The notes under the pieces are model-generated. The model had not been told where the DNA came from. It saw nothing but the letters and a program-made list of their open reading frames with translations, and made no database searches. From the NCBI GenBank assembly GCA_018436595.1, contig JAHDLC010000024.1:1-39150 (forward strand): a stretch of 39,150 bases of DNA, given 5' to 3'. Shown in pieces: positions 2-6,364 of the stretch. Each line of letters starts with the position of its first letter. Position 1 is the first letter of the stretch. The DNA comes from Synergistaceae bacterium (GTDB lineage Bacteria; Synergistota; Synergistia; Synergistales; Aminobacteriaceae). Position numbers and translations under genes: made by a program.

Positions 2-343
2 GACAGGGTCTGTCTTCCCTTCGCGGAGTTCGGAAACGAACTTGTGCCGCTGCTCGTGGAACTGAAGGGCACTTTCGATTCGGAAAAAATGGACAGCATC
101 ATCGCGCTCTGTGAAAGATTTTCGGAAGGAGCGGCGAATATTGTCAGACAGGCGGCGGGCGGAACGTCGGCTCTTGCGCCCCGCGAACGGGAAATCGCCC
201 TGTTGGTGAAGGAAGGTTTCCAAACGGGTGAAATCGCAGCCCGGCTTTTCATATCCGAAAACACTGTAAAATCAGCCCGCAAGGTCATTTACGGCAAACT
301 CGGAATTCATTCGAGAGCGGAGCTGAAAAAAATAACGTTGTAA
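2..343 (+). CDS. LuxR-type transcriptional regulator, C-terminal part (5' truncated by window)
   Basis: The reading frame is open from base 2 to the stop at 343, so the gene starts outside the window. A GTG at 44 exists, but the residues before it (PFAEFGNELVPLL) are continuous with the protein and resemble the region just before the DNA-binding domain of large MalT-like (LAL) regulators. The last ~60 residues form a LuxR helix-turn-helix: LAPREREIALLVKEG, then ARLFISENTVKSARKVIYGK and LGIHSRAEL, all at the family's conserved positions. Such proteins bind DNA and activate transcription, usually through an upstream ATPase/TPR part that is not visible here. It lies upstream of a run of exported-protein genes in the same direction and could regulate them, but nothing in the sequence proves that. 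Confidence 0.85.
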   Translation, partial: DRVCLPFAEFGNELVPLLVELKGTFDSEKMDSIIALCERFSEGAANIVRQAAGGTSALAPREREIALLVKEGFQTGEIAARLFISENTVKSARKVIYGKLGIHSRAELKKITL

Positions 344-609
344 AGGGGCCGGCATTTTCCCCTGTTCTTCTTCAGCATCAAACTTCCGGACGGCAGGTTT
401 GGTTCGAAAAATCATGTTTTTCTTCCCTTCGAAATACGGCATTCCGAAGTTAATGGTCACCCCTCCTGAAACCCCCCCTTTCGGGGGAGGCGGGAAAATT
501 TTCTCTCAGTACAATGGTGCATAACAGAAAAATAAATGCCTGACACAAAATAGGTCCCGTACAACTGTGGGGACACTGTTGTTGTGTTGCCCCAACGCGG
601 GAGGATGCC

Positions 610-921
610 ATGGAGACACAATCGGGATTTTTTAGAAGCGTACACCCTCTGCCAATGCACACATTGGAGGTCGTGATGGAGACGGACACCCATATCGTGT
701 TCGATTTCACATCGCGCCTGGGCACCATGAGATTCGGGGCGCTCGTTGACGATGAACTGTTCAGCAGCGCCCGAACGGACGGGAATTTTATCCTGTTCGG
801 GAAACCCGGAGCGCCGGAAATCCGCATCGGACCGGCGGACTTCGCGGACCTGGTGCTCGTGGACCGGACGATGGACGGTCCGGATTACGGGTCGATTTTC
901 TCAAAAGAATTATATAAATGA
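610..921 (+). CDS. Small DUF2442-like protein of unknown function
   Basis: A 103-residue cytoplasmic protein without signal peptide or membrane segment. The ATG at 610 is preceded by GGGAGG at a normal distance, which favours it over the internal ATG at 655. The layout (HPLPMHTLEV, a strand-rich middle, then a phenylalanine-leucine DDELFSSAR segment and a final FADLVLVDR) resembles the small DUF2442 fold, but the match is by eye only. DUF2442 proteins have no firm function; some sit next to toxin-like DUF4160 genes, and no such partner is present here. The stop codon overlaps the Shine-Dalgarno region of the next gene, so the two may be co-transcribed. Confidence 0.6.
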   Translation: METQSGFFRSVHPLPMHTLEVVMETDTHIVFDFTSRLGTMRFGALVDDELFSSARTDGNFILFGKPGAPEIRIGPADFADLVLVDRTMDGPDYGSIFSKELYK

Positions 922-933
922 GGAGTGAACTGT

Positions 934-2190
934 ATGAAGTGCACAGGCAGGTTGTTCAGAATATGGTGTTTGGTTTTCAGCGCGCTGGTTTTGTTTTCCC
1001 TTTCCGCGTCTGTGGTGTGCGCGGCGGGAGAGGACGCGGGTGTCAAAGGATTGTGGCTCCGGATTCCGGAATTTCCGGACGATGCGGAGGTTGACGAGTT
1101 TTCCGCGGATGAGGACGGCGAAGTAACCTACATCCGCTCCATCGACGACGGCAGGTTTGTGCTGGGCATCTTCAGGATACCCGCCGGCGACGAAATGACG
1201 CCCGAAAAATTGAAGGAAACGATTGCGGAGAGCGTGACGAACAGAGGCGGTGACGCTGATGACATCGAGTTCGACGCCGGGGCGGAGGACTTCGCCGAAT
1301 TGCTCTCCTACCCGTGCCTGACCGCTGAATACGAAATCGGCGAGGACGAGGACGCCACAAAGTTCGGGGTCATCGGGGTGTTCACCCACAAGTACGTTTT
1401 CCTCGTCCAGGCGGCGGTCGATGAGGATTCGCTCGACGACTACAGCGACAGGACCCAGGTGTGGCTCGAGGGAATGAAACTCGTGGGCGGTGCAGAATCC
1501 GGAGAAGAGAAAAACGAAGGCGGAGAAGGCAGAGGCGATCTGTTCGACGACGAAACATCGGACAACGACGGAAAGACACCGGATTTCGTCGCAGTTGTCT
1601 ACTCGCTGCCGGAGTTTCGGGGCGTCTCGTGGCACATCCCCGCGCCGGGCGAATATGACCTGGGCAGCGGCTTCGGCCTGCCCAACGACAGCGTATGTTC
1701 CGTTGCCGTATGTCCGGGATACAGGGTCACGCTCTACCAGCACTCGGAATTCGGCGGTGAGAGCGCAGAATTCGAGGACAGCGAAGAAGACCTGGGCGAT
1801 CTGAAACGCTGGGCGTCGTCCCTGAAAGTCGAACAGATAGAGGAGCCGGACCCTGACCTTGCTCTTGCATGGTTTGAGGTCCAGGCGGAGAACGAGCAGG
1901 GTTTCGAGGAGATTGAACCCGCGCCGAAAGCACTGAAAACTCACGCAGAAAGAATAAAGCGCTTCCAGGCTGCGGGGGAGATGAACTGGTACGGCACGAC
2001 GAAGGACGCGGAGCGGGTCAAGCTTGGGGGAGAACTGATCGGGATTTTCACCGACCTGGGGGTTGATATGAGCAACTGGGAGGCAAACACTTTCGCCCAG
2101 ATGATGAACAATTTTTACGACTGGCGCAAGGACCTGAGCGTGTGGGATACGGCGTGCCTGATTCTCAACGTCGACCCGGAAACTTTTTGA
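934..2190 (+). CDS. Exported protein with a beta/gamma-crystallin-like domain
   Basis: A 418-residue protein. I chose ATG 934 because GAGGAG at 920-925 lies 8 nt before it; an in-frame GTG at 925 overlaps that site. Residues 1-28 look like a signal peptide (basic start, long hydrophobic core, cleavage near CAAG). Residues ~30-180 form a module shared with the next gene (VKGLW near the start, a SYPC motif, then a hydrophobic strand). An acidic linker follows (~185-217). Residues ~218-302 are a Greek-key beta/gamma-crystallin domain: FRGVSWHIP, GEYDLGSGFGLPNDSVCS and LYQHSEFGGESAEF. The first calcium half-site (NDSVCS, ~251-256) is close to the N/D-N/D-x-x-S/T-S consensus; the second (KRWASS) lacks the acidic pair. 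The C-terminal ~110 residues are unrecognised. It probably acts outside the cytoplasmic membrane; its binding partner is unknown. Confidence 0.85.
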   Translation: MKCTGRLFRIWCLVFSALVLFSLSASVVCAAGEDAGVKGLWLRIPEFPDDAEVDEFSADEDGEVTYIRSIDDGRFVLGIFRIPAGDEMTPEKLKETIAESVTNRGGDADDIEFDAGAEDFAELLSYPCLTAEYEIGEDEDATKFGVIGVFTHKYVFLVQAAVDEDSLDDYSDRTQVWLEGMKLVGGAESGEEKNEGGEGRGDLFDDETSDNDGKTPDFVAVVYSLPEFRGVSWHIPAPGEYDLGSGFGLPNDSVCSVAVCPGYRVTLYQHSEFGGESAEFEDSEEDLGDLKRWASSLKVEQIEEPDPDLALAWFEVQAENEQGFEEIEPAPKALKTHAERIKRFQAAGEMNWYGTTKDAERVKLGGELIGIFTDLGVDMSNWEANTFAQMMNNFYDWRKDLSVWDTACLILNVDPETF

Positions 2191-2340
2191 GCAATAGGAA
2201 AAAAAGCGCCGGGGAGAAAAAGAGACAGGATATGCGTTGAATACCTATTCGGCAGCGGTTTTGATGTTTGCTTCACCTTCGGCGGAGGGAACCCCGGTTT
2301 TCAGGTCCGGAACCATGCAGAGACAGGAGGTTTCAGTGAA

Positions 2341-3612
2341 ATGAGAAAGGTCATGCTGTACGTTTCGCTTTTCTGTGTTTTTGCCGCTGCGGCATTCTGC
2401 TTCGGAACTGCGGCGAACGCAGACGATTCACCGGATGGGTGGGTGAAAGGGCTGTGGATACAAGCGGCCGGGCTGCCCAAAGACGCGGTGATCGAAGATT
2501 TTTCCGACGGCGACGATGAAAAGCCATGGTTTGTCTACAGTTGGGGAAAGGGCAGCGACGGCCCTGCCGTGACGCTCGGTGTTGGGCGCTTTCCATCTTC
2601 TGCGGATATCGGGGAAAAACTGCTGAACCTCGACAAAAAAGTGCTTCGCGAATTCATCGGCTCGGAAGCTTTCTGGGAAAGCCCCGACGCGAAAAAGCTG
2701 ACATTCACGCAGGCCCCTGAAAAAATAAGCGCGGGCCTCTCCTACCCCTGCCAGATCGTGCGATACGCGGAATCGGATATGGGGCTCTCCCACATGGTCC
2801 TGTTCATAGAGACCGATCCGTTTCTTTTTATGGCTGAGATAACCTGGGAAACAGAGAACAAAAAGTTCAAAAAAAGCGACGGGGAAAAAATCCTGGCGAA
2901 TCTTGCTCTCGTCGAGCAGGAAGGGATGAAAGCCTCCGGGCCGGACGGTGACCTATTTTCACTGAAGGACGGGCGCCTTTTTATGGGCGAGGAAAGTGTT
3001 GAAGCGGAAGTGAACGAGGTGCCGCCGGAAATCGAAGGCCCGGTGCGTTTCTGGAGCGCCGTCGGGGCGGATGACTCGGGCCTCGTCAGGGAAAATGAAA
3101 CCGGCGTCCGGTTCTTTGCGGAAGACGGAGCCTTTCTGGCGTTCCTGCCCCTCGAAAGCGCGGACGAGTGCCAGGATATCATTTTCAGTCCGGACGGGAC
3201 TTTTTTCCTGCTGATGAGCGGAAGCGGGATCCGGGCCGACATGACGTACATACTCTACGATCCGGAAACAATGGAGAAAAAAATCGAAATTTCCGGGACA
3301 AGAGGATCCGCAGAGTGGATTGACGTCGGCCGTTTTGTGCTGACCCGGATCGACGATGTGCGCGAGACGGAAAGCGGGACTTTTTCCATGGCCGCGCTCC
3401 GCCTCTCGGCAGTGATGTATGACACCGTGGCGGAGGAGCTGGTCGTTCTGAAAGAAGCGACCGCGACGAAAAATTACTGGTGCGGCGGTTTGGCGGACGA
3501 CGGCGGCTCGCTCATCATCAGCGAAGATTCAGTGACGTCGGAAAAGGACTGGGGCGACGAGGAAAAAATCACAACGCGGGAAATAAAAATAGAGATTCCC
3601 GCGGCAGGATAA
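2341..3612 (+). CDS. Exported protein: shared N-terminal module plus propeller-like C-terminal half
   Basis: A 423-residue protein starting at ATG 2341, with CAGGAGG about 10 nt upstream. Residues 1-27 are a signal peptide ending in ANA. Residues ~33-200 parallel the preceding gene: VKGLW, P-x-DA, then DFS, a SYPC motif at a similar distance, and a hydrophobic strand before the domain ends. This points to a domain duplication. The C-terminal half (~215-423) has repeating beta-rich units such as IIFSPDGTFFLLMS followed by ILYDPETMEKKIEI, reminiscent of TolB/WD40-type beta-propeller blades. Only part of a propeller would fit in ~200 residues. No catalytic motif was seen. A role in the cell envelope or periplasm is inferred from the export signal only. 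Confidence 0.8.
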   Translation: MRKVMLYVSLFCVFAAAAFCFGTAANADDSPDGWVKGLWIQAAGLPKDAVIEDFSDGDDEKPWFVYSWGKGSDGPAVTLGVGRFPSSADIGEKLLNLDKKVLREFIGSEAFWESPDAKKLTFTQAPEKISAGLSYPCQIVRYAESDMGLSHMVLFIETDPFLFMAEITWETENKKFKKSDGEKILANLALVEQEGMKASGPDGDLFSLKDGRLFMGEESVEAEVNEVPPEIEGPVRFWSAVGADDSGLVRENETGVRFFAEDGAFLAFLPLESADECQDIIFSPDGTFFLLMSGSGIRADMTYILYDPETMEKKIEISGTRGSAEWIDVGRFVLTRIDDVRETESGTFSMAALRLSAVMYDTVAEELVVLKEATATKNYWCGGLADDGGSLIISEDSVTSEKDWGDEEKITTREIKIEIPAAG

Positions 3613-3641
3613 AGACCTGCCGAGGACCTGTGTTGTGGGGC

Positions 3642-3679
3642 GATTGTGCTGCGGGAGAGGAGACTCCCGCAGCACAATC
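3642..3679 (+). terminator. Strong 16-bp hairpin in the intergenic region (terminator or attenuator candidate)
   Basis: Bases 3642-3657 (GATTGTGCTGCGGGAG) are perfectly complementary to 3664-3679, with a 6-nt loop (AGGAGA). There is no T-run after it, so it is not a classic intrinsic terminator for the plus strand. It lies 30 nt after the stop of the propeller-like gene and 90 nt before the next start. It may stabilise the upstream mRNA end or cause partial termination. Confidence 0.6.
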
Positions 3680-3770
3680 AGGGTGCTGTTTCAGATTCCG
3701 CCTGTTAGCAATCGGCGGTGTTCTGTTTCAGAGAAGGGCGGAAAGCATATTCAACAAAGGGGGGCAAGAC

Positions 3771-4316
3771 ATGAGAGGAAAGAACAGGTTCGGACTGCTG
3801 GCGGGCATGGCGGTGCTGCTTGTGCTGGTGTTCGCCTCCGCAGCCCTGGCGAAACCCGACTGGGTGACTGTCAGGTACACGGGATGCAAACTTTCGACGG
3901 AAAAGAACACGAAGGTGACGGACGGCAACCACAGAAAACTGGTTCTGTACTTCGACGTCATCAACAACAGCAAGAGCGGCGATATCATTACGGCCATCTA
4001 CGACAGAAAAATAGGCTACAAAGGAGTGTTCACCATCCACAAGATGGAACAGGGCCTTGTCCAGAACGGCGTGATACAGTCGCAGGGATGGAGACCTGCA
4101 ACGTGGAACGTCAGTTATTCCGGCACATATACCAAACCGATAAAAGGAGAATGGTATCCCGGACAGGTGTACAAGTACGACATCTCCGTTTCCCTCAATA
4201 AACTCATCAAGCCTTTCGGGGGCAACTGGAAAAAGACCAATGAAGCGGCGTCCAGAGGCTTTAATTTCAAGCCGAATTCACTGTCTTTTGATTTCGGGGT
4301 CCGCAGCCACAAGTAA
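3771..4316 (+). CDS. Exported protein of unknown function (181 aa)
   Basis: The start at ATG 3771 is supported by AAGGGGGGC about 7 nt upstream and by the signal peptide that begins there (MRGKNRF, then a leucine/valine-rich core and cleavage after ALA at ~27). The frame is open further upstream, but that stretch holds the 3642-3679 hairpin and has no protein-like character. The mature ~154 residues are rich in tyrosine, tryptophan, lysine and beta-branched residues (LVLYFDVINNSKSGD, YKYDISVSLNK), as in an immunoglobulin-like beta sandwich, and contain only one cysteine. I do not recognise the family. The gene lies among other exported-protein genes on the same strand. Confidence 0.8.
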   Translation: MRGKNRFGLLAGMAVLLVLVFASAALAKPDWVTVRYTGCKLSTEKNTKVTDGNHRKLVLYFDVINNSKSGDIITAIYDRKIGYKGVFTIHKMEQGLVQNGVIQSQGWRPATWNVSYSGTYTKPIKGEWYPGQVYKYDISVSLNKLIKPFGGNWKKTNEAASRGFNFKPNSLSFDFGVRSHK

Positions 4317-4406
4317 GGCCGCTGTTCAAAAAATGATCGCCGGCTTTTGAAGCTGTGCGGAGGGAGCTTTCGAGGTGCGAAAAAGGAGGAGGCCGTTCTG
4401 AAAAAA

Positions 4407-5780
4407 ATGCCGATAGGGCTGCGAAGCCTGGCGGTCCTGTGTCTTGCCGCTCTTTTCCTGATGGGACCCCCGCCGGCGGCCTTTGCCCTGAAACTGACGA
4501 TCCGAAACGACTTCGCAGACAGCCTCAACACTGCCGTGGTCTACTACAGCGACTCCACCGGCGCATGGACCACCAGAGGCTGGTACGTGGTGAGGCCCCG
4601 CGAATCGCGGACCATCACCTTTTCCACCTCCAAACCGGCCATGTATCTCCATTCCTATCTCTCCGGCAGGAATACAATCTCCTGGGGAAAAGGGGACATT
4701 ACAAGGGTAGTCATGTCGAAGGCCTTTGTGTACGAGGACGGCGAAACATGCCCCGCCGGTCCCGGCAGGAGGACAGCGAAGTTCACCAGGTACGCGGCAA
4801 AAAACGGCCGTGTGAACTACAGTCCGGTGAAGACGGGGGAGCCCCTTCCCGCAGGGGGAGAAGACACTTCTTCGGCGGTACGCAATGAACTGCTGAAACT
4901 CATCAATGCCGACCGCAGAAAGACCGGCGCCCGGGATCTGAAACTGGATGCGACCCTGTCGAAGGCGGCGGCCCGCCGTGCTTCGGAACAGCCGAAGGTG
5001 TGGGGCCACACCCGTCCGAACGGAAAAAGCTACAGTTCCGTCTTCGCCGAGTTCAGTCTCAATCCGGCAAAAAGCGGCGAAAACGTGGCTTCAAATACGA
5101 AACCTCTGAAGGCCTCTTCTTTTCATGAACAGTTCATGAACTCTCCCGGGCATAAAAAAGTTCTGCTGAACCCGGAGTATTCCGCCGTGGGGCTGGCTTT
5201 TCACGAGGAAGGGGGCAGGACCTACTGCGTGGAACTCTTCACGGGAGAGGGCGGGGGAGCCGGAAACACCCCGTCCCCGCCCAGGGACGGTCTCGCTGTT
5301 GCGGCTGCCAATGTGGTGAACCTTATCAACAACGAGAGGACCCGTTCCGGACTTACACCCCTGTGGACGGGAGATGCCCTGACCAGCGCGGCCCTGACCA
5401 GGGCACGGGAGATGAACGTGAAATTCGACATCGTCACCAGGCCTGACGGAAGGACGTTCGATACTGTCCTGAGGGACAGCGGCCTGGTCTTTGCCGGGGC
5501 ATCGACATCGGGGGTTGACACGCCGGAGGCCGACGCACTCGAAATATTCCGGGAGTTTTTTAACGACAGAAAGACCCGAAATTCCATGATGGGCGGGGAG
5601 TATACTCATGTGGGGGCGGGAATCTGTCGGCTCGGCAGCGGATATTACACCGTTCTCCTCTTTGCCGGGGGCGGCGGAAGCGGCACGACAGAGACAGGCC
5701 TTGCCGGGGCGATGAATGAGCTGGAGAAGTCCCTCCAGGAATTTGAGGAGGCCCTCCGGCAGCTCGGCGATCTGTTTTAG
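4407..5780 (+). CDS. Exported DUF1036-like protein with two CAP (SCP/PR1) domains
   Basis: A 457-residue protein from ATG 4407. A CTG at 4398 is better spaced from the GGAGGAGG at 4385-4392 and would add LKK before the signal peptide, so the true start could be there. The signal peptide ends near AFA. Residues ~28-125 are DUF1036-like (LTIRND, then RGWYVVRPRESRTITF). Residues ~158-280 are a CAP domain with the expected ligands: His201 in GHTRP, Glu225 in GEN, and His249 in SPGHKK. Residues ~303-420 are a second CAP domain (VVNLINNERTRSGL) in which all three are missing. The C-terminus is a short amphipathic helix (LEKSLQEFEEALRQL). Bacterial CAP proteins are usually secreted and bind small ligands or act in the envelope; the exact role here is unknown. 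Confidence 0.9.
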   Translation: MPIGLRSLAVLCLAALFLMGPPPAAFALKLTIRNDFADSLNTAVVYYSDSTGAWTTRGWYVVRPRESRTITFSTSKPAMYLHSYLSGRNTISWGKGDITRVVMSKAFVYEDGETCPAGPGRRTAKFTRYAAKNGRVNYSPVKTGEPLPAGGEDTSSAVRNELLKLINADRRKTGARDLKLDATLSKAAARRASEQPKVWGHTRPNGKSYSSVFAEFSLNPAKSGENVASNTKPLKASSFHEQFMNSPGHKKVLLNPEYSAVGLAFHEEGGRTYCVELFTGEGGGAGNTPSPPRDGLAVAAANVVNLINNERTRSGLTPLWTGDALTSAALTRAREMNVKFDIVTRPDGRTFDTVLRDSGLVFAGASTSGVDTPEADALEIFREFFNDRKTRNSMMGGEYTHVGAGICRLGSGYYTVLLFAGGGGSGTTETGLAGAMNELEKSLQEFEEALRQLGDLF

Positions 5781-5899
5781 GTACGAAGGAACCTCGGGAG
5801 AACAGAAAGCCGGGAACAGTCACGGCGCCGGAGTTGAAAAATACGGTGCTGAAAGAGGCGGGTTGCATACTGTGAAGGTCCGAAAGGAGAAGTGACGGG

Positions 5900-6364
5900 G
5901 TGAAAAACTTTCTGAAATTCGTATCGGCATTCTGCGTTTTCGCGGCGGCATTGTCTTTTGCCTCATCGTCCTGTGCCGCTGTCTCAATCACGATACAGAA
6001 CAACCGCGAACACAATCTTTCGTTCGCTTTCTGCTGGGCCGGGTTCGACAAGCCCGACGACAGGCGGATCGGCTGGTACAACGTCAAGGCGGGAGAGTCC
6101 AAAACGTTCACCTTCAAGGATGCTCAGTACGCCCTCACTGCGCAGGACTTCGGGTATTATGCCATGGGCGGCGGAAAGGTCTGGACGGGGAAGGCGGATG
6201 ACGAGCGTCCTCTGCCCGTGATCATCCATCCGAAACAGGCATTCAAAGGGAGTCCGGAGGATTCTATCGACGGCGGCAGAAAAGTATATTTCAGGCACAT
6301 CAAACTGAAAGAAACCAGTGATGACAAGGTAAACGGAAGCGCGACCCTCACCTTCAACCCATGA
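5900..6364 (+). CDS. Exported DUF1036-like protein (stand-alone)
   Basis: A 154-residue protein from GTG 5900, with AAGGAGA 9 nt upstream. The signal peptide (MKNFLKFVSAFCVFAAALS, cleavage near CAA) is followed by one DUF1036-like domain: ITIQNN, GWYNVKAGESKTFTF, and a YYAMGGGKVWTG turn. It is a clear paralogue of the N-terminal domain of the preceding CAP protein: both have the I-R/Q-N start, the GWY-V motif, the ES-T-TF strand and a W-G-KG/KA element. It is separated from that gene by about 120 nt and followed by a terminator, so it probably closes the exported-protein cluster. Function unknown. Confidence 0.85.
   Translation: MKNFLKFVSAFCVFAAALSFASSSCAAVSITIQNNREHNLSFAFCWAGFDKPDDRRIGWYNVKAGESKTFTFKDAQYALTAQDFGYYAMGGGKVWTGKADDERPLPVIIHPKQAFKGSPEDSIDGGRKVYFRHIKLKETSDDKVNGSATLTFNP

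Follow-up and report, generated by a model that had tools for sequence, protein, structure and literature searches.

An intact and a degenerate CAP domain in one DUF1036 protein of the Synergistaceae

Introduction

Why would a protein carry two CAP domains and keep the metal-site residues in only one of them? This question is raised by a gene at positions 4407–5780 in a stretch of 39,150 nucleotides from a member of the Synergistaceae (contig JAHDLC010000024.1), referred to below as the window. The accessible part of a review (PMC10189770) describes a CAP cavity in which 2 histidines and 2 glutamates coordinate divalent cations, and treats the biochemical activity of plant PR1 as an open question. 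A first-pass annotation of the window, made from the DNA letters, had described the protein as a DUF1036-like domain attached to an active and an inactive CAP domain, and had suggested that the pair serves ligand binding or a dimer-like assembly. We found no activity for CAP domains of this kind.

Results

A probably secreted protein with two CAP domains

The frame lies on the forward strand and is open and complete up to the stop codon at 5780. At the aligned start position, the window and genome G001 carry CTG (4398–4400 in the window, forward strand), and the orthologs of genomes G020 and G004 (L005 and L006) carry ATG, preceded by a similar Shine-Dalgarno arrangement. In the window, the Shine-Dalgarno-like sequence AAAGGAGGAGG was read on the same strand at 4382–4392. 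Because it lies just ahead of the CTG, and because 2 orthologs have ATG at this place, translation probably starts at CTG 4398 and not at the alternative ATG 4407; residue numbers are counted from ATG 4407 throughout. The N-terminal stretch (4407–4487) was judged by eye to be a Sec-type signal peptide, and no lipobox was seen by eye in the protein sequence. This stretch is under little constraint, with looser pN/pS values (0.66–1.04 in the 5 ortholog pairs with synonymous changes) than the domains that follow it. The protein is probably secreted.

Three Pfam domains make up the rest of the chain. The DUF1036 domain (PF06282; 4494–4808) scored 31.7 bits in the genome search and 28.3 in a second scan, against a cut-off of 23. 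Two CAP domains (PF00188, cut-off 21.1) follow, CAP1 at 4893–5231 with 51.4 bits and CAP2 at 5316–5657 with 36.4 bits; the total for PF00188 over both is 81.7 bits. A C-terminal tail ending in LGDLF (5682–5777), predicted with low confidence to be helical, closes the protein, and a similar tail is present in a single-CAP relative from genome G156. An open frame of 1122 residues in another genome (L067; G127, contig C460) has DUF1036-like matches at 6 successive places.

The tetrad was scored in the same order for all proteins: first His, first Glu, second Glu, second His. In CAP1, the 4 columns, assigned partly from the known CAP tetrad and partly from alignments, hold His201, Glu215, Glu225, and His249 (codons at 5007, 5049, 5079, and 5151). 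For CAP2, the columns were set by a profile of 14 CAP domains from which any CAP2 was excluded. They hold Val343, Asp357, Ser368, and Thr390 (codons at 5433, 5475, 5508, and 5574), so that both His and the second Glu are lost and the first Glu is replaced by Asp. The first-pass annotation had named His201, Glu225, and His249 as kept in CAP1 and their counterparts as gone from CAP2, and both statements agree with these columns, as does the pairing of an intact and a degenerate CAP domain with DUF1036. Its motif for the Glu225 counterpart, AGASTSG, places an alanine in that column, which the profile assigns to Ser368; the absence of an acidic residue holds under either alignment. The fourth site, Glu215 in CAP1 and Asp357 in CAP2, had been missed, and it is Asp in the CAP2 of all 4 proteins with this architecture. 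Functional His or Glu residues elsewhere in CAP2 would have told against a degenerate site; each CAP2 contains just one His, at a position that is not shared by all 4 proteins.

Comparison with narrower protein models placed the protein outside 2 known families. It matches the spore YkwD model TIGR02909 in 2 stretches with 99.9 bits, below the NCBIfam cut-off of 171, and DalA (NF052539, a divisome-associated lipoprotein) with 45.2 bits, below the cut-off of 200, and it is a member of neither. A literature search for DalA found nothing.

CAP2 is predicted to retain the CAP fold

A model of CAP2 alone, predicted from 13 aligned rows, reached a pLDDT of 87.7 and a pTM of 0.81. With this model, the top 3 Foldseek matches were solved CAP domains (4ifa, and 4h0a twice), and VIA-align gave Z 20.3 for 4ifa (rmsd 1.6 over 125 residues), 17.2 for 4h0a, and 17.0 for BB0689. 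The prediction is partly guided, because canonical CAP domains were included in its alignment; the Pfam score of CAP2 is separate support for the fold. At the level of sequence, the profile of the whole protein matched nothing in the PDB at 0.01, and a CAP profile searched with E up to 1 matched 8 sequences, led by 4ifa (3.4e-6), 4h0a (0.006), and 4d53 (0.055), with the remaining 5 weaker (0.22–0.76) and left out of the comparison. A prediction of the full-length protein from 3 rows had a pLDDT of 42.8, too poor to judge how CAP1 and CAP2 are arranged. CAP2 is thus predicted to retain the CAP fold. By its alignment and its model, it is a CAP-fold domain and not a canonical metal-site CAP domain.

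The degenerate domain is conserved in 4 genomes

The full DUF1036-CAP-CAP architecture was found in 4 of 185 genomes of the phylum: that of the window, G001 and G004 from the same genus, and G020 from another genus of the same family. The 3 orthologs are 93, 75, and 60% identical to the window protein. No match was found in G002 and G003, which also belong to the genus of the window. CAP1 reads HEEH in all 4 proteins, and CAP2 reads VDST, VDST, ADWI, and SDSC. As the same loss occurs in all 4 proteins, down to 60% identity, it is not the decay of a single gene.

CAP1 and CAP2 share 24–30% identity, and each makes up a single group across the 4 genomes; both domains therefore predate the splits among these genomes. 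Most simply, the loss of the tetrad in CAP2 also predates them. Selection on the domains was estimated by the method of Nei and Gojobori in the 6 pairs formed by the 4 orthologs, giving pN/pS values of 0.21–0.32 for CAP1, 0.28–0.45 for CAP2, and 0.28–0.52 for DUF1036. The values for CAP2 therefore indicate purifying selection, weaker than that on CAP1. Among the 4 proteins, 65 of the 130 columns of CAP2 are invariant.

In each of the 4 genomes, both CAP matches fall in this one protein, and the Pfam matches at E 0.001 include no further candidate partner for CAP1. The survey of the 185 genomes took in domains at E 0.001 or better only, so that a badly decayed partner domain would escape it.

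The gene appears to be an accessory member of a conserved gene group

Upstream of the gene lies a row of genes that begins behind a small LuxR-type regulator with a GerE domain (44–343, Pfam). It continues with a protein matching the crystallin family (925–2190; 19.7 bits, below the Pfam cut-off of 25), a protein of 423 residues (2341–3612), and a small protein that contains the motif KPDWVTV and begins like a signal peptide (3762–4316, forward strand). Downstream, at 5900–6364 on the forward strand, a small DUF1036-like protein is encoded, which weakly matches the window protein (E 0.006) and has no Pfam match at E 1. Several proteins of this neighborhood have signal-peptide-like starts. The KPDWVTV gene lies 5' of the CAP gene in all 4 loci, and the small DUF1036-like gene 3' of it in 2 of the 4. 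G004 has 2 adjacent copies of the KPDWVTV gene (L117:615-1783), 76% and 48% identical to that of the window, the nearer of which lies about 590 bases from the CAP gene.

The group as a whole (44–6364 in the window; L114, L115, L118, and L120) occurs in relatives with or without the CAP-CAP gene. The KPDWVTV gene was found in 10 of the 185 genomes, 6 of which have no CAP-CAP protein. Three genomes (G034, G071, and G072) carry the LuxR, crystallin-like, 423-residue, and KPDWVTV genes with no CAP-CAP gene beside them; the contig of G071 stops about 700 bases past the KPDWVTV gene, yet there is no full-length match in that genome. Because related genomes carry the group without the CAP-CAP gene, the latter looks like an accessory member, as judged from gene content. 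The group is possibly connected with the cell envelope.

Tandem CAP proteins with one histidine-less half occur elsewhere

Further tandem CAP proteins came from plasmid and phage records, which were searched at the protein level with queries that have one live and one dead CAP domain. Here, “dead” means that both His of the tetrad are lost. The searches matched 28, 154, 18, 76, 27, and 109 records, which overlap, and no place in these collections covered 80% of the window protein. We read 16 matched regions (12 from plasmids and 4 from phages), chosen either as apparent tandem CAP matches or as single-CAP comparisons. The wider pattern is biased toward live/dead pairs, because the queries were such pairs and only these 16 regions were read; the remaining matched records may contain more tandem proteins, live/dead or otherwise.

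In Sinorhizobium meliloti, of which strain LMB1 carries a tandem CAP gene on plasmid pC, the first CAP domain reads HDEH and the second KKGN. The order is reversed in 4 human-gut scaffolds, with YEET, YEEA, YEET, and YEEF in the first domain and HEEH, HEEH, HDEH, and HEEH in the second. These scaffolds were deposited as UNVERIFIED “Bacteriophage sp.” and may be bacterial. It is likewise reversed in 3 tandem proteins from Streptomyces, which read RAPW, VAEG, and RAEW in the first domain and HAEH in the second in all 3; in one of these (L142), the first CAP domain contains the annotated start and may thus not be fully made. Another of the Streptomyces loci, on a plasmid of Streptomyces fungicidicus (L141:631-1968), encodes a TerD-CAP-CAP protein with an N-terminal TerD domain, a first CAP domain without the His, and intact His in the second. 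All 4 dead gut domains retain both Glu, and 2 of the 3 from Streptomyces retain the second; judged by their tetrads, the dead domains outside the window family have lost less. The tandem CAP gene on a plasmid of Sinorhizobium fredii (L134:1112-2097) is split over 2 frames, by mutation or sequencing error, and both Glu and the second His are missing from its second domain.

From the 16 rows of tandem proteins, the repeats of the window and G001 were merged (L015/L004 and L016/L024), and the frame-broken S. fredii protein and L093, a tandem protein from genus g15, were set aside, leaving 12 unfragmented proteins in 4 lineages, including the family of the window. In each of the 12, one domain has both His and the other lacks both. 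For comparison, 31 single-CAP proteins were listed, and 8 were dropped: the S. fredii fragment, 3 proteins from genus g15 in which Pfam finds a tandem, 2 in which no domain passed, and 2 in which a single His column was aligned. Both His are present in all 23 that remained, which have both columns aligned and 10 of which are also in the profile. The second Glu column is Glu in 17 of the 23 (6 from g15 lack it), and the first Glu column varies widely. Because the Glu columns vary among single CAP domains, the wider comparison rests on the 2 His.

Viral contigs were also scanned with canonical single CAP domains, a scan that was seeded with the SPGH motif, and hence favors the second His, and that overlaps the set of 23. 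It gave 42 loci with 35 distinct CAP ORFs, none of which is tandem; 3 align in two pieces, and both His are present in 31 of the other 32. One viral contig encodes a protein of 655 residues (L126:399-2363) in which LysM-like and peptidoglycan-binding-like stretches were recognized by eye ahead of a C-terminal CAP domain with both His. Viral scans with A3 and A6 gave no confirmed relative.

The Pfam survey of the 185 genomes is the one sample not chosen through live/dead queries. It yielded 8 proteins with two CAP matches in one frame, of which 4 are the family of the window and 4, all from genus g15, retain both His in both halves, by calls made partly by eye. In these g15 loci (L084, L089, L092, and L093), 2 CAP proteins lie in a single open frame of about 700 residues with no stop between them. 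By eye, a stretch like a sorting tail directly precedes one like a signal peptide at the junction; in L093, the junction matches Synerg-CTERM (TIGR04564) with 19.8 bits, just below the cut-off of 22.5, and the other 3 have no match.

The histidines appear to have been lost at least partly separately

In a tree of 33 CAP domains (INDEPENDENCE), the label “dead” requires 3 changes, 2 of which are forced by well-supported (starred) branches. The dead domains from the gut scaffolds and from Streptomyces each sit with their own live partner (support 89/86 and 90/85, not starred). A single origin of the His-less domains, with all dead domains held as one clade, was rejected (lnL 23.9 lower, p-AU 0.004); the AU tests were chosen with the tree already seen. 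CAP2 and the second CAP domain of S. meliloti are weakly joined (54/64) on long branches, so these 2 losses may or may not be separate. Trees holding CAP1 and CAP2 together, or CAP2 with the CAP domain of G156, were not rejected (p-AU 0.289 and 0.438, respectively), and CAP1 groups with the stand-alone CAP domains of G012 and G032 (85/93, not starred). CAP2 may thus have arisen from CAP1 by tandem duplication or in another way, and either of the two may be the counterpart of the CAP domain in G156. From the tree, the losses of His in tandem CAP proteins appear to be at least partly separate.

Discussion

What the degenerate domain may do

We give about even chances to an arrangement in which the protein is secreted, CAP1 provides the metal site, and CAP2, conserved but dead, packs on CAP1 as its partner within the chain. 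The Sec route would take such a protein to the periplasm or the cell surface, with its N-terminal DUF1036 domain probably acting as a binding module. CAP1 would bind a divalent metal through its intact tetrad, as other CAP proteins do. CAP2, its fold presumably kept and its metal site lost, would pack against CAP1 to form a single-chain pseudo-heterodimer, in which it may stabilize or shape the cavity of CAP1. Because CAP2 is conserved and appears to retain its fold, because no other CAP domain was detected in the 4 genomes, and because similar pairs occur elsewhere, this dimer-like assembly, with CAP2 as pseudo-partner of CAP1, is, on these indirect grounds, the most likely reading of the alignments, the model, and the analogies.

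Alternatively, CAP2 may have taken on a new role as a binding domain in its own right, with a pocket that has no need of a metal and that accepts, for example, a lipid or a cell-wall component. A predicted fold that is kept and the invariance of half of its columns would fit this. There is also a precedent: according to the accessible part of a published study (PMC5893428), sterol is bound by HpVAL-4, a CAP protein that lacks the histidines, and this protein also has a palmitate-binding cavity. In the 4 CAP2 domains, however, just 1 of the 4 tetrad columns is constant (V/V/A/S, D/D/D/D, S/S/W/S, and T/T/I/C), so there is no sign of a fixed new ligand at this site, and we consider re-purposing unlikely.

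CAP2 could also be a relaxed remnant: if one site suffices, the second would decay, and the fold would survive since an unfolded domain harms the chain. CAP2 does change faster than CAP1 (57–59% versus 70–71% identity between the window and G004), and since it is the less constrained of the two, partial relaxation is possible. Loss of the His in either order across lineages is also what neutral decay would produce. Still, its pN/pS stays at 0.28–0.45, similar to that of DUF1036, and the domain is kept in all 4 full-length proteins, although the latter is a weak argument, since these proteins were recognized as full-length matches and the G156 protein has a single CAP domain. On balance, a remnant strikes us as improbable. 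Mis-assembly, a frame error, or a pseudogene can be dismissed almost entirely as the source of the degenerate CAP2: the tandem gene of the distantly related S. fredii does fall in 2 frames, but in the window family the frame is open in 4 genomes that agree in the same CAP2 features.

If the dimer-like assembly is carried over to the other proteins, a wider reading arises, which we put forward tentatively and regard as rather doubtful. Tandem CAP proteins would repeatedly have become in-chain pseudo-heterodimers, one half losing its His, in either order and several independent times, since the pair would need a single metal site and the dead half would complete or gate the cavity. The lineages behind it are those of the window, Sinorhizobium, Streptomyces, the gut bacteria, and a hookworm. 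Among the literature matches listed, no report of live/dead CAP pairs in bacteria was found, in a search whose coverage leaves out most subscription journals; DUF1036 was listed there in 1 paper. Their recurrence would be of more interest than the single protein of the window, a modest new variant. Proteins in which one CAP site of a linked pair has been disabled more than once amount to a natural experiment on CAP biochemistry, and if the dead half were always needed, the working unit of CAP would be a pair in which metal is needed once. Production of the bacterial tandem proteins, which are small, may be easier than that of the hookworm protein.

Comparison with known systems

Among known CAP families, the YkwD-type proteins resemble the window protein in the 2-stretch match to TIGR02909 and in providing the best structural matches of CAP2 (4ifa and 4h0a). 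Their model, however, is one CAP domain long (127 positions) and has no DUF1036. Borrelia BB0689 (PDB 4d53) is another bacterial CAP protein with a fold close to that of CAP2 (Z 17.0), but it is a single-CAP surface lipoprotein, as far as it is described in the accessible part of its source.

The nearest in architecture is the protein of G156 (L049/L119), which shares DUF1036, a CAP domain with HEEH, and a tail ending in LGDLFK. It belongs to another family of the order, is about 30% identical to the window protein, and has one CAP domain only; the second CAP domain therefore sets the family of the window apart. The tandem proteins of the Sinorhizobium and Streptomyces plasmids and of the gut scaffolds share with it the placement of both tetrad His in one CAP domain and neither in the other. 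They differ in that no DUF1036 match was found in those scanned (L132, L135, L140, and L141), and the His-less domain, which often retains Glu, is the first of the two in the Streptomyces and gut proteins.

The published parallel is Na-ASP-1 of the hookworm Necator americanus (PDB 3nt8). In the accessible part of the study cited above for HpVAL-4, its C-terminal CAP domain is described as having the metal-binding His, its N-terminal cavity is compared with one that lacks them, by which their absence there is implied, and the packings of Na-ASP-1 and of Pry1 are both said to connect the central cavities of the 2 domains (PMC5893428). Insofar as that account goes, Na-ASP-1 is like the window protein in joining two CAP domains in one secreted chain, with metal-binding His in one. 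Chain 3nt8_B matched the CAP2 model with Z 10.5 and 9% identity over the match. The order of the live and the dead domain is reversed in Na-ASP-1, and it is a protein of an animal parasite; we know of no DUF1036 domain in it. With the metal-binding His lacking from its N-terminal domain, as that account implies, it and the window protein both have two CAP domains with these His in only one. By analogy, Na-ASP-1 offers the best mechanistic precedent for a live/dead pair of CAP domains in a single chain.
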